Part shown: positions 1 through 32,173 of the stretch, piece after piece | How the letters are laid out: each line of letters starts with the position of its first letter | Position numbering within the stretch: position 1 is the first letter of the stretch | DNA from: Thermoanaerobaculales bacterium | GTDB lineage: Bacteria > Acidobacteriota > Thermoanaerobaculia > Thermoanaerobaculales > Sulfomarinibacteraceae | Assembly (NCBI GenBank): GCA_021107705.1 | Contig: JAIOSJ010000145.1 | Location: forward strand, 1-32,173 | Length of the DNA: 32,173 bases | Direction of reading: 5' to 3' | Notes under the pieces: model-generated | Told to the model about the DNA's origin: nothing | Database searches by the model: none | What the model saw: the letters and a program-made list of their open reading frames with translations, nothing else | Position numbers and translations under genes: made by a program

Positions 1-113
1 AGATATCTTGCCCACGATGTGCGGAATGTAGGCCTCGTCGCCTCATTACTCAAAAAACCACGCTGCACAGCAGCTTCGCAACCCTCGCGACGAAACCCGG
101 TGAGAAGTGCGGG
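1..113 (+). repeat. Dispersed inverted-end element, copy A (right part only; left part lies outside the window)
   Basis: Right end CCTCGCGACGAAACCCGGTGAGAAGTGCGGG; core CTCGTCGCCTCAT..CAAAAAMCCACGCTGC is shared with copy D (17747-17922). Confidence 0.8.
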
Positions 114-7028: not shown

Positions 7029-7883
7029 ATGACGGGGACCGAGTTCACGACCGTAAATCTTTGGATCGCAGAAGATCGCGAACCTAATTTGGCCGAAGTC
7101 CTTGGGTCTCATGCCACTCTCGGCTCGATGCTTGGATCGGTCTTTGAAGGTCGGGTCGAAGCGACGATCTACCTGGACTCCTCTCAGGAGCCGGTCATTC
7201 CCTCTCTGCTTCAGGATCTGGAAGGATTGGCCTGTTCTGAGTTAAGGGTCGGTACTCTTCCCGGCCAGGATTGGTTGAAGGCTTATCGTGAAAGGGTCAA
7301 ACCCTTCTCGTTGGGACGGACCTGGTGGATCGATCCCCACCCGCAGATGCCGAGTCAAGCTCCGAAAGGCCGTTTGAGGTTAGTGATCGAGCCCCGGATG
7401 GCCTTTGGAACAGGGTCCCACGAATCGACCCATCTCGTCCTTCTCGAACTCGAGGATGATCCACCGGAAGGGCTTTCGGTCATGGACATCGGCACCGGAT
7501 CGGGCATCCTGGCCCTCGCGGCGGAGCGACTGGGAGCGGTCAGAACGGTTGGGCTTGACATTGACCTCCAAGCCGTCATTGTGGCCCGACAGATCGTCGC
7601 GGACCAGGATTTCGCATGTTCGCCAGGATACCTGGCTGGTCCGCTGGCGGCCGTGGGCCGAGGTGAATTCAGCCTGGTTCTGTGCAATATGATCTCAGAG
7701 CATTTTCGGCCGTTGATCGCCGGCATCCGCAGGATCATGACTGCCGAAGGAACAGCGGTTTTCTCCGGGGTTCTCGCGAAGGAGGCCGAGGAGGTTTCCC
7801 TGGCCCTCGAAAAAGGGGGCTTGAGAGTCGAGAAAACCAGACATCTTCATGACTGGGTTGCGCTGAGGGTCCGTCGTGGCTAG
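7029..7883 (+). CDS. prmA: Ribosomal protein L11 methyltransferase
   Basis: RLVIEPRMAFGTGSHESTHL, VMDIGTGSGILALAAERLGA; placed after dnaJ as is common. Confidence 0.9.
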   Translation: MTGTEFTTVNLWIAEDREPNLAEVLGSHATLGSMLGSVFEGRVEATIYLDSSQEPVIPSLLQDLEGLACSELRVGTLPGQDWLKAYRERVKPFSLGRTWWIDPHPQMPSQAPKGRLRLVIEPRMAFGTGSHESTHLVLLELEDDPPEGLSVMDIGTGSGILALAAERLGAVRTVGLDIDLQAVIVARQIVADQDFACSPGYLAGPLAAVGRGEFSLVLCNMISEHFRPLIAGIRRIMTAEGTAVFSGVLAKEAEEVSLALEKGGLRVEKTRHLHDWVALRVRRG

Positions 7884-8058
7884 CCCGCATATCTCACCAG
7901 GTATCTACTGCGGGCGGCGTATGGCAGCCATCTGTCGTGCTTTTCGCAAATCGTTCTCCTCGAAGGAGCGCTACTCCAACTGCGTCGCCCGATTTCCGAA
8001 AAACTCAACACCTAACGACCCTTCGCAGCCCTCGTTACGAAAAGGGTGAGAGATGCGG
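7884..8058 (+). repeat. Dispersed inverted-end element, copy B (complete, about 175 bp)
   Basis: Left end CCCGCATATCTCACC starts 1 nt after the prmA stop; right end GGTGAGAGATGCGG contains the rsmE ATG. Core shared with copy E. Confidence 0.85.
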
Positions 8059-8772
8059 ACTGATCCGTGGTTGCTGGTGTCGCCGGGTTCCCTCAAGGTA
8101 GGGGTGGATATTCTATTGGATGAAGAGGAGGCGCGCCACGCTTCGGGAGTGCTTCGGTGTCGGGTGGGGGATCGCGTTGTGTTGGCCGATGGGGCAGGGG
8201 TTGTTGCCCATGCCGAATTCATCGAGTGCGCCCGGTCACGGGCCGTGGTGCGGATAACCGGTGTCGAGAGGACCGAAGAAACCACCGGCGGGGTTCAGCT
8301 TGTGTTGGCCGTTCTCCACACCAAGGCGATGGACTGGGCGGTTCAGAAGGCCGTGGAAGTCGGAGCACAGTCACTGTTTCCGGTTGTATGTGGGCGTTCC
8401 CAAGGGGATGTTCACGGCGCCGGGCGCCGTCTCGATCATTGGCGGCGAGTCTCGCGTCAGGCCCTCAAACAGTGTCACCGGCCATGGATGATGAAAGTAT
8501 TCGAGCCGGAGGACCTGGAAACGGCGATCGGTAGGATCGCTTCCGGCGTAGTCGCCGACCCTGAGGGAGGACAATTGGAGAGTCTTCCTCTCGAGGTGTG
8601 CCGAACTCTGCTTGTGGGTCCCGAGGGTGGCTTCACACCTCGAGAGATCATGAGACTGGACGAGACCGATTGGCTTCGGCTCAACCTCGGGCCTCATGTT
8701 CTGCGGGCCGAGACTGCCGCCATTGTCGGTGCTGCAATTCTCGGAATGAGGTTCGGCCGAAATTCGTCCTGA
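8053..8772 (+). CDS. rsmE: 16S rRNA (uracil(1498)-N(3))-methyltransferase RsmE
   Basis: EEARHASGVLRCRVGDRVVLADG, KAVEVGAQSLFPVVCGRS, LLVGPEGGFTPREI, LGPHVLRAETAAI. Confidence 0.93.
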   Translation: MRTDPWLLVSPGSLKVGVDILLDEEEARHASGVLRCRVGDRVVLADGAGVVAHAEFIECARSRAVVRITGVERTEETTGGVQLVLAVLHTKAMDWAVQKAVEVGAQSLFPVVCGRSQGDVHGAGRRLDHWRRVSRQALKQCHRPWMMKVFEPEDLETAIGRIASGVVADPEGGQLESLPLEVCRTLLVGPEGGFTPREIMRLDETDWLRLNLGPHVLRAETAAIVGAAILGMRFGRNSS

Positions 8773-8805
8773 CCGGCGGTGCTACACTCCCGCGCCATGG
8801 TTAAT

Positions 8806-9054
8806 CCCCATATCTCACCAGTTTTCTACTGCGGCCGGCGGTGTACTGCACCCAGTGTCGTTTTCTCGCTTCGGGATGCTCGCCGAGCCCACGCTGGCCC
8901 CTTCCGGGGCCTCGCGCCTTCGGCATGGCCGCCCTTTCGGGCGGTGCGCGAGGTCCCTACTGTCGAGTACAAGCCGCGCCCGATAATCGGGTCGAAAACA
9001 CCGCTGAGCACGGTGCCTCCCCGCCCTCGCGACGAAACCCGGTGAGAAATGGGG
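8806..9054 (+). repeat. Dispersed inverted-end element, copy C (complete, about 249 bp, distinct core)
   Basis: Left end CCCCATATCTCACC; right end GGTGAGAAATGGGG. Core contains additional small palindromes (GGCCCC-TTCC-GGGGCC, CCGCCC-TTTC-GGGCGG). Confidence 0.82.
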
Positions 9055-9843
9055 ACCATAACCGAATCTTGTTGGATTGACTCCCACGCTCACCTCACGA
9101 TGTTCGAGCCGGACGAAGTGGTTGCAACCTTGGATCGAGCGGCGGATGCAGGAGTCGTCGGCGTTCTGATTCCGGCGACGGGGCCGGACGACCTTGAGCG
9201 AACCCTGGCTCTTGGTCGAGAACACGGGTCACGAGTGTCGATCGCCGTCGGTACCCACCCTCACGATGCCTCCTCTTTGGATCGAGCGTCCAAGCAGAGG
9301 CTCACCAGAGTTTTGGATGAGCCCGGAGTGGTTGCTGTGGGGGAAATTGGTTTGGATTACCACTATATGAATTCGCCACGAGAAGACCAGCTTCAGGCCC
9401 TCGAGTGGCAACTGGATCTGGCCCTTGAGGCGAATCTTCCGGTTATTCTCCATAATCGCGATTCTTGGGAAGACCTGGAATCTCTGTTGGTTCGCCGTAC
9501 CGGTCTCCTCCGTGGCGTCTGTCATTCGTTTACGGAGGGACCCGATCGGGTTCGAAAGGTCATGAAACTCGGTTTGTATGTGGGTGTTTCCGGGATGGTG
9601 ACTTTTCGCCAGGCGCACAACATTCGGGAGATGGCTGCGGCGGTGGATATTGACCGCTTACTGGTCGAGACCGATAGTCCTTTTCTCGCCCCTGTGCCCC
9701 ACCGTGGGAAACGAAACGAACCTTCGTTTATCCCGTTCGTCGGCCGGGCAGTGGCACAGGAACTCGGTCTCTCGGTTGATGAAGTTGCCGCCGGAACCAC
9801 GGCGAATGTTGAACGTCTCTTTGGTTTTCGTCCGGAACTCTAA
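9049..9843 (+). CDS. tatD: TatD family metal-dependent hydrolase (DNase)
   Basis: WIDSHAHLTMFEPDEV, VGEIGLDYHY, LPVILHNRDS, LLVETDSPFLAPVPHRGKRNEP. Confidence 0.95.
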   Translation: MGTITESCWIDSHAHLTMFEPDEVVATLDRAADAGVVGVLIPATGPDDLERTLALGREHGSRVSIAVGTHPHDASSLDRASKQRLTRVLDEPGVVAVGEIGLDYHYMNSPREDQLQALEWQLDLALEANLPVILHNRDSWEDLESLLVRRTGLLRGVCHSFTEGPDRVRKVMKLGLYVGVSGMVTFRQAHNIREMAAAVDIDRLLVETDSPFLAPVPHRGKRNEPSFIPFVGRAVAQELGLSVDEVAAGTTANVERLFGFRPEL

Positions 9844-10025
9844 AAGCCCTGTGCCCTTCGTCCGCGAAGCGAAAGGCCCGAGAGGCTGTGAGATGTGTCT
9901 TTCTCGCGAAGTCGTAACTCGAAGGCGTATCAAGAGATACGTTGAGTGTGGCGACGAGCGAAAATCGTGCAGATTGCTGTCTATCGGGCATTGTAGCCGC
10001 GAGAGGGCTTGGCACAGGGCTTTTA
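9841..10025. repeat. Second inverted-repeat element (185 bp) with perfect 15-bp inverted ends
   Basis: TAAAAGCCCTGTGCC (9841-9855) and GGCACAGGGCTTTTA (10011-10025) are exact reverse complements. Internal hairpins CTTCG-TCCG-CGAAG and CGTATC-AAGA-GATACG. Confidence 0.85.
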
Positions 10026-10029
10026 ACCT

Positions 10030-17746: not shown

Positions 17747-17922
17747 CCCGCGTTTCTCACCGGTTTTCTGCTCCGACCGCAGATCTGGCGCACTGCGTGG
17801 TCCTTTTCACGATTCGTCTCCTGCGACGTGCCGTTGAGTACGACTCGTCGCCTCATCGGTCAAAAACCCACGCTGCGCACCATCTTTGTGGTCTCGCGAC
17901 GAGACCCGGTGAGAAGTGCGGG
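17747..17922 (+). repeat. Dispersed inverted-end element, copy D (complete, about 176 bp)
   Basis: Left end CCCGCGTTTCTCACCGG; right end CCGGTGAGAAGTGCGGG. Core shared with copy A. Confidence 0.85.
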
Positions 17923-21891: not shown

Positions 21892-22284
21892 TCATTCCGT
21901 ATTCATCCTCTTCCACACCAGGCGTCCGGCGCGGGCCGTTTCTCCGTCGACGATCACCAGGAGGGGCCCGATGGTTGACCAATGGCCGTCCTTGTACTTG
22001 ACGTAGGCATTGATGATCTGGCCGAAGAGGGAAACGCCCGGGATATCGCTTCGATAGGCAATGTCGCCTACCGTTTCCAGCAGCTTAAAGAGACCGCCGA
22101 TCTTTCCCCGATGGTCCTTCGCATGGCAGCCATCTGTCGTGCTTTTCGCAAATTGTTCTCCTCGACGGAGTGCAACTACGACTGCGTCGCCCAATTTCCG
22201 AAAAACCCAACATCTAACTAACCTTCGCAGTCCTCGCGACGAAAACTGGTGAGAGGTGCGGGCAAAAGGATCGGGTTTCGCCAC
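21892..22284 (-). pseudogene. Chimeric ORF: gene 3' fragment fused to element copy E
   Basis: First ~55 aa read through copy E; the remainder (DHRGKIGGLFKLLETVGDIAYRSDIPGVSLFGQIINAYVKYKDGHWS...) looks protein-like but has no start of its own. Confidence 0.45.
22123..22262 (+). repeat. Dispersed inverted-end element, copy E (left end missing)
   Basis: ATGGCAGCCATCTGTCGTGCTTTTCGCAAAT..GACGAAAACTGGTGAGAGGTGCGGG; near-identical core to copy B (7921-8058). Confidence 0.83.
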
Positions 22285-23241: not shown

Positions 23242-23498
23242 CGTCGCATTGTCTGCGGGGCCGGAAAGCGGGTGTAATTGGAACGAATACCCGACCCCGC
23301 ACAAAAAGCGAGCGGCGGCCTGCCCAACTACCGGGAGAACTGTTTTTGAACGACCTGCCCGTGAGTTGCCAGGTCGGACCTGTTGCACCCACTCAAACTA
23401 AACGCGAATCTCCCGCCTTCCGCACAATGACCTGGCCTGGCTCTCCACGGGAAGCGCTCTCCGACCTTGGTCCTCCCGGAAACGAGGTAGGCCGCCGC

Positions 23499-23563
23499 TC
23501 GCCTGAGCAGCGTGGTCGCAGACGCCTCGACCATTTTCCTTCGCGACCGCGCTGCTCGGGCGA
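23499..23563 (+). repeat. Long hairpin in non-coding region (21-bp stem, 23-nt loop)
   Basis: TCGCCTGAGCAGCGTGGTCGC pairs with GCGACCGCGCTGCTCGGGCGA; 19 Watson-Crick pairs plus 2 G-U pairs if transcribed on the plus strand. Confidence 0.7.
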
Positions 23564-31824: not shown

Positions 31825-31954
31825 TTTTGCCTCGCCTTTCGAAGTTGTTGGAGTGGGAGTTGCTATGAGGTCGCAATTGGGACGCGGAGCTCTTATCCGC
31901 AACGGGTGCCCATGAGAAAGGGCCATCGTATTCCTGGAACAACACAGGAGAAGA

Positions 31955-32053
31955 TCTCGCAGAGAACGCTGAGAACGCAGAGAGAATGTCTTTACGAGAA
32001 ACCCCTCTTCCTTGTCTCCCCCCCCCTGCGACCTCTGTGCTCTTTGCGAGAGA
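31955..32053. repeat. Second, diverged CAGAG-type palindromic repeat element
   Basis: TCTCGCAGAGAACGCTGAGAACGCAGAGAG (left) and CTCTGTGCTCTTTGCGAGAGA (right, inverted). Confidence 0.6.
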
Positions 32054-32173
32054 ATAGTCTTCCTTTTTGTGCATTTTTGCTCCTTTTTGTGGCTATTTCC
32101 CCCTCTTCGTGGCGTTGCCCTGGGATATTTCTGAAGACTCAGTCGTATACTGTTCGACCATGACGGCCGTGCG

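Follow-up and report, generated by a model that had tools for sequence, protein, structure and literature searches.

A dispersed family of hairpin-forming miniature elements, probably of IS1380 type, whose ends appear to provide start codons to neighbouring genes

The stretch of DNA analysed here, 32,173 nucleotides long and called the window below, contains several dispersed sequences with shared inverted ends. The question is what these sequences are, how they are moved and what their insertion does to the adjoining genes. The window is the complete contig C349 of a draft assembly (444 contigs, 4.3 Mb) of a Thermoanaerobaculales bacterium. The original prediction, made from the window alone, described five copies (A to E) of an element family with exchangeable cores, resembling MITEs or palindromic repeats and belonging to no named family that was recognised. 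It proposed a genome-wide model search, also of relatives, a measurement of core swapping, and a search for target-site duplications and for a transposase gene with matching ends. All five copies are real and lie where they were placed, but a sixth, with different ends, had been overlooked, and the boundaries of copies B, C and E have been redrawn (Table 1). Copy A is incomplete, because the window starts at base 1 of the contig. Copy D has an Amidase_3 gene and an MreB-like gene as neighbours, both on the minus strand, and copy E is 87-88% identical to copy B over positions 22120-22261. The window contains other repeats as well: a long inverted repeat at 23292-23518, with 49-nt arms that are 71% complementary, possibly of another palindromic element family; a region at 31950-32150 rich in CACAGAGGACACAGAG/CTCTGTGT-type repeats, apparently of another dispersed repeat family; a 31-nt inverted repeat at 208-286, at the 3' end of an MglA-like gene, perhaps a terminator; and a repeat of 21-nt period at 750-952, encoding the acidic repeat VEIEDVPVEIEDQDIEIED in the MglA-like protein.

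Table 1. Element copies and neighbouring genes in the window. R1 is the covariance model described in the text.
Feature	Position	Strand	Description
Copy A	1..113	-	D-like subfamily; terminal repeat 97-113; R1 51 bits, E=8.8e-14
prmA	7029..7883	+	PF06325, E=1.4e-42; stop TAG 7881-7883 lies inside left target CTAG 7880-7883 of copy B
Copy B	7884..8059	-	B subfamily, 176 nt; flanks CTAG, CTGA; R1 141 bits, E=2.2e-39
rsmE	8053..8772	+	PF04452; start ATG 8053-8055 within right end of copy B, GGTGAGAGATGCGGA
Native tatD start codon	8797..8799	+	Separated from the gene by copy C; GCTACACTCCCGCGCCATG identical upstream of tatD in L357 and L358
Copy C	8805..9055	-	C subfamily with tip extension, 251 nt; left target TTAA 8801-8804; R1 101 bits, E=5e-28
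Copy C tip extension	8886..8958	-	73 nt; same place in some B-subfamily copies
tatD	9049..9843	+	PF01026, E=4.5e-71; present start ATG 9049-9051 within right end of copy C, GGTGAGAAATGGGGA
Sixth copy	9844..10022	+	Sister family, homologous hairpin, ends AAGCCCTGTGCC..GGCACAGGGCTT; R1 73 bits, E=4.5e-20
Copy D	17747..17922	-	D subfamily, 176 nt; R1 168 bits, E=6.3e-47
Copy E	22093..22262	-	B subfamily, decayed left end; R1 88 bits, E=2.7e-24

The shared inverted ends go beyond chance, as had been supposed. A 31-mer from the right end occurs four times in the window with three or fewer mismatches and in none of 100 shuffles, and the left-end motif occurs nine times, with 0.8 expected. Genome-wide, 108 end matches with at most two mismatches are present, against a single match to the reversed pattern. 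When copies B, C and D are used as queries, 46, 62 and 40 matching pieces are found in the genome, respectively. A structure-sequence (covariance) model, R1, was built from 28 element copies and gives 140 matches at E<=0.001 in the draft genome, most of them spanning the whole model, which bears out a dispersed palindromic family that is dense in its genome. No Rfam covariance model matches the element at E<=1, and the end sequence is absent from the open-access literature searched, in keeping with the failure to recognise a named family. The elements also break the assembly, since contigs C2, C18, C185, C209, C369, C415, C120 and C398 begin or end inside one.

The anatomy of the family was derived from 85 paired elements, with 84 flank pairs and 168 flanks scored. 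The typical element is a MITE of about 176 nt (173-180 nt) with inverted ends CCCGCAYTTCTCACC..GGTGAGAARTGCGGG; the terminal repeats measure 15-17 nt. End variants are CCCGCA(C/T)TTCTCACC, CCCGCATATCTCACC and CCCGACCTTCTCACC, with their complements. Longer forms measure about 227 nt, with a fixed 50-nt insert, or 247-255 nt, with a 73-nt extension of the hairpin tip. The 4-bp sequence YTAR (CTAG, CTAA, TTAG or TTAA) is found at 117 of the 168 flanks. Both flanks are identical in 32 of the 84 pairs, while random re-pairing of the same flanks gives 10.6 on average and no more than 21 in 5000 shuffles; the identical pairs include the non-consensus ATAG, CTAC and CTAT. A 4-bp target-site duplication, which the original prediction had left to be sought, is thus present. 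Together with terminal inverted repeats, a length of 173-255 nt in typical copies, below the 500 bp customary for MITEs, and the lack of coding capacity (lengths from 173 to 180 nt and inserts disrupt any common frame, and there is covariation with no codon pattern), this places the elements among the MITEs. Like REP/BIME-type repeats, which are moved by the RAYT (TnpA-REP) transposase, they are palindromic, intergenic and abundant. That they are such repeats is nevertheless highly improbable: in place of a palindrome of 20-40 bp with a GTAG or CGTC tag, elements of 176 nt with true terminal inverted repeats of 15 nt are found, IS1380 transposons have matching ends, and the target duplications refute this assignment.

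Among copies of normal length, 28 belong to subfamily B, 25 to C and 13 to D. The three align over their full length with a mean column identity of 74%, and since they align end to end, the cores are one homologous sequence and not swappable modules. On this alignment, a single structured sequence has diverged into three subfamilies, the core types A/D, B/E and C, and the claim of exchangeable cores does not hold; copy C differs mainly by its 73-nt tip extension, which sits at an identical place in subfamily C and in some B copies. Genome-wide, about a dozen further copies form a sister family together with the sixth copy of the window; they have AAGCCCTGTGCC as ends and YTAR as flanks, and R1 recognises their hairpin. 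The sixth copy itself is flanked by CTAA at 9840-9843, which includes the tatD stop codon TAA, and by TTAA at 10023-10026. Because the same core occurs with different ends, this suggests that cores can change their ends and perhaps their transposase too. As far as the sequences go, exchange affects the hairpin tip and, among sister-family copies, the terminal repeats.

All copies fold as one long imperfect hairpin with strong covariation support. Compared with shuffled sequence, the folding z-scores of window copies B, C, D and the sixth copy are -5.4, -5.25, -6.6 and -5.6. In the mixed alignment of subfamilies B, C and D, 95.3% of cells are paired and double changes occur at 25 of 46 pairs, with slid controls pairing at 32-50%. 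In an alignment to which L144, a Thiohalobacter MAG, and L140, an Actinomycetota MAG, contribute copies, 94.8% of cells are paired and a double change is seen at 33 of 61 pairs; slid controls pair at 36-47%, and none of 500 shuffles reaches the pairing or the double-change value. The shuffles are the more telling control, because the structure was derived from these same alignments. Mismatches and bulges keep their places in the different subfamilies and phyla, and the internal loops and a tip hairpin, CGTACTCGACAGTACG, are conserved also in L144, L140, L168 and L188.

Pairing of this kind could result from a functionless DNA process, in which the arms of a palindrome correct each other through template switching or repair. 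Palindromes are known substrates for such arm-to-arm events, and copying between arms would hold them complementary while the sequence drifts. We consider this unlikely, as the mismatches and bulges at fixed places have been conserved and not corrected, and a symmetric correction is not expected to favour a strand: in all 66 copies, the strand modelled by R1 is the better-folding one, with a mean of -92.8 against -71.7 kcal/mol. Subfamily C moreover contains 93 G-U cells against 16 A-C cells. The strand asymmetry and the G-U excess hint at selection on RNA, without being proof of it. The elements may then primarily be a structured, conserved RNA, or a regulator at the RNA level, with transposition as the means of spread; the hairpin would act in mRNA, for instance in transcript protection, termination or processing, and would be maintained because selection on the host or the element favours it. 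The compensatory changes far in excess of controls, the conserved loops and tip hairpin, and the favoured strand and G-U excess, which fit RNA better than double-stranded DNA, speak for this. The orientation of elements relative to neighbouring genes is only weakly biased, however (72 sides sense, 49 antisense), subfamilies B and D show no significant G-U excess, and there is no Rfam family, so that we regard a primarily regulatory nature as possible but somewhat doubtful.

The most likely movers of the elements, judged by their ends, are transposases of the IS1380 family. These were sought in carriers and relatives. L306, from the host's own family, is cut at one contig end and has one matching end, GTGAGAAATGCGGG followed by CTAG. 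The best match is a complete transposon of 1740 bp in a genome of the host's phylum, Acidobacteriota (L388), whose transposase is 59% identical to that of L306, used as the query. It is bounded by CTAG and CCCGGATTTCTCACC on the left and by CCTGGTGAGAAATGCGGG and CTAG on the right; its left end can also be given as CCCGGATTTCTCACCGTAG, and one end contains an exact CCCGCATTTCTCACCAGG. Both ends match in L390 and L407 and one end in L389, L391, L392, L393 and L408. In L216, which comes from a carrier among the Gammaproteobacteria, the CCTGGATTTCTCACCG ends are perfect and each is flanked by CTAG. A Rhizobium plasmid contains an annotated IS1380 transposon, with TTAG before CCCGAATCTCTCAAAG and after CCCGCATTTCTCACAGC. 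All transposase proteins tested match NF033539 and/or PF13701. Relatives of L306 at 52% identity or more have the same end type, invariably so in the clade at 52-66% identity; transposases with matching ends are 58-66% identical to that of L388, and IS1380 members with other ends 37-39%. The fold predicted for the L388 transposase (pLDDT 78) matches Tn5 (E=5e-7) and piggyBac 6x67 (E=7e-5); a search of PDB sequences with the IS1380 profile gave no match. A point against the assignment is that IS1247, of the IS1380 family, has been listed with a 5-bp repeat (PMC3281130), whereas 4 bp are measured here.

A transposase with matching ends, as the original prediction envisaged, therefore exists in other genomes but was not found in the element's own draft. 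There, the sole IS1380 gene, C388, has other ends and is rejected as a direct partner. L119, considered as a 1.2-kb transposon, is really two small elements flanking a host gene. Since the own genome holds no transposon with matching ends, we infer that the MITEs are mobilised in trans; a partner transposon may have been lost or have remained unassembled. The matching transposons and the MITEs have only their ends in common, about 15-18 nt, and as elements of 176 nt without a transposase gene the latter are IS1380 derivatives, not members.

The outward end, GGTGAGAAATG/GTG, contains a Shine-Dalgarno-like motif (GGTGAG) and a start codon. In 15 of 21 other family members in which both genes were found, prmA and rsmE overlap or lie no more than 2 nt apart; in the host they are separated by a 169-nt gap that copy B fills, and the first methionine of RsmE aligns with that of relatives. 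The comparison is one between species, the nearest relatives being about 52-55% identical in RsmE. In the sister genus (L357-L359), prmA and rsmE are likewise separated, and the sequence leading into rsmE is GGTGAGAG-ATG or GGTGAGAA-ATG; the sequence CAGCAGGAAGGTGGTGAGAAATG, kept in L359, looks like a decayed element end. Copy C is inserted just behind the native start of tatD, as ATGGTTAA followed by the element. In relatives tatD starts at GCTACACTCCCGCGCCATG, which the host retains before copy C, while its TatD frame now runs from the ATG in the element end. Other genes have a similar arrangement: a sigma-70 factor starts in an end, with region 1.2 from residue 12, and an NtrC-type response regulator, MRAR-ILVVDD, has its start four codons inside another copy, with the receiver domain from residue 5. 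The genes rsmE and tatD, like those of the sigma factor and the NtrC-type regulator, appear to start within a transposon end.

Simple counts of open reading frames around ends are uninformative in a genome of 59% GC, and a codon-frame caller was used instead, whose 84 confident calls on known genes of the window were all correct. Genome-wide, 20 ends abut an outward gene that is in frame with, and open to, the start codon of the end. ATG stands there in 13 of the 20, compared with 41 of 138 other ends (p=0.004), or in 17 of 24 compared with 68 of 241 when unpaired ends are included. Taken alone, the preference for the frame does not reach significance (23 genes in frame with the start of the end against 11, p=0.06), so that the evidence lies in the retention of ATG and in the individual genes. 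Eleven confident inward genes terminate exactly at the TAR of the target. An insertion should do limited damage, because YTAR often holds the upstream stop codon and the outward end offers a Shine-Dalgarno-like motif and a start codon. More tentatively, selection may have shaped the terminal repeats into a portable cassette for translation initiation, in which GGTGAG-AAATG and the stop-bearing YTAR let an element drop between, or just inside, the genes of an operon, with the upstream stop kept and the downstream gene newly provided with a ribosome-binding site and start. The hairpin, with its covariation, would then act in mRNA, the element would be adapted to tolerance by translated neighbours, and its ends would be exchangeable so as to recruit new transposases.

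To trace the family outside its own genome, 85,488 species genomes were scanned for a single 18-mer of the element end. The matches listed are labelled as Gammaproteobacteria, Alphaproteobacteria, Acidobacteria, Nitrospira, Actinomycetota, Planctomycetota and others. MAG labels may be wrong for individual contigs; Thiohalobacter and Nitrospira are each backed by more than one contig. Single-end matches mean little, since such a scan would yield an estimated 46 or so by chance. That the end similarity as a whole is due to chance or to faulty assembly can hardly be maintained, as among the matches listed at least 63 intervals have both ends within 360 nt, mostly flanked by YTAR, R1 finds its 140 genome matches, and the copies sit in coherent gene neighbourhoods. 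Beyond the ends, R1 finds the core in L140 (E=4e-32), Thiohalobacter L146 and L144 (1e-31), L188 (3e-21), Thermoanaerobaculales L107 (1e-20), Nitrospira L174 (1.5e-17) and L203 (1e-14); some other carriers contain a different core of about 240 nt. In the host's order, end matches are present in 32 of 39 genomes, with bursts in the own genome (229), G040 (224) and G041 (180). A plasmid collection contained no element. Two contigs labelled viral in IMG/VR, L386 (4317-4334) and L387 (7239-7256), contain an exact end with a TTAA flank, possibly carried by a phage or prophage.

The dispersed hairpin elements are a MITE family of a known kind, most probably moved by IS1380 transposases; what is surprising about them is the portable start codon, together with the conservation of the structure. 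In the reading that we prefer, an IS1380 transposase would recognise CCCGCAYTTCTCACC/GGTGAGAARTGCGGG and insert the elements, supplied in trans, at 4-bp YTAR sites that it duplicates; the long imperfect hairpin between the ends would keep its pairing through compensatory changes, in the own genome and in distant MAGs, and the element end could take over initiation of the downstream gene, which would then be translated from it. We give this reading, with mobilisation in trans and translation from the ends as its conditional parts, a probability of about 0.88. If it is correct, a family of structured MITEs sharing one end sequence has gone unnoticed in many MAGs of several phyla, IS1380 transposases have been the force behind it, and the insertions alter the positions at which proteins start. 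The elements would allow a direct test of whether the end of a transposon can act as ribosome-binding site and start codon, and they would be a case of a single hairpin core with two unrelated sets of ends. Their insertions would also explain the misassembly of such MAGs, in which many contigs finish inside an element.

When the elements are compared with known systems, they share terminal repeats and the YTAR target duplication with IS1380 insertion sequences, which differ in carrying a transposase and have nothing but the ends in common with them. The piggyBac superfamily also has a 4-bp, T/A-centred target duplication: piggyBac duplicates TTAA via a 4-nt hairpin (PMC7351741), and some piggyBac elements use TTAG, CTAA or TCAA (PMC10813416). 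A match to the predicted IS1380 fold adds to the likeness, although piggyBac is eukaryotic and, in the profile search of the PDB, the likeness does not extend to sequence. Bacterial MITEs such as ERIC, Correia and RUP are short, non-autonomous, palindromic intergenic repeats with hairpin transcripts (PMC10969869); they differ from our elements in ends, mobiliser and hosts, and the accounts consulted make no mention of a start codon in the end that is used by downstream genes. The pneumococcal BOX repeats are modular, have a conserved secondary structure and in some cases supply the start codons of new reading frames (PMC3049150). The BOX-derived frames are novel and do not have a good Shine-Dalgarno sequence, whereas here old housekeeping genes appear to start in the element end, behind a Shine-Dalgarno-like GGTGAG.
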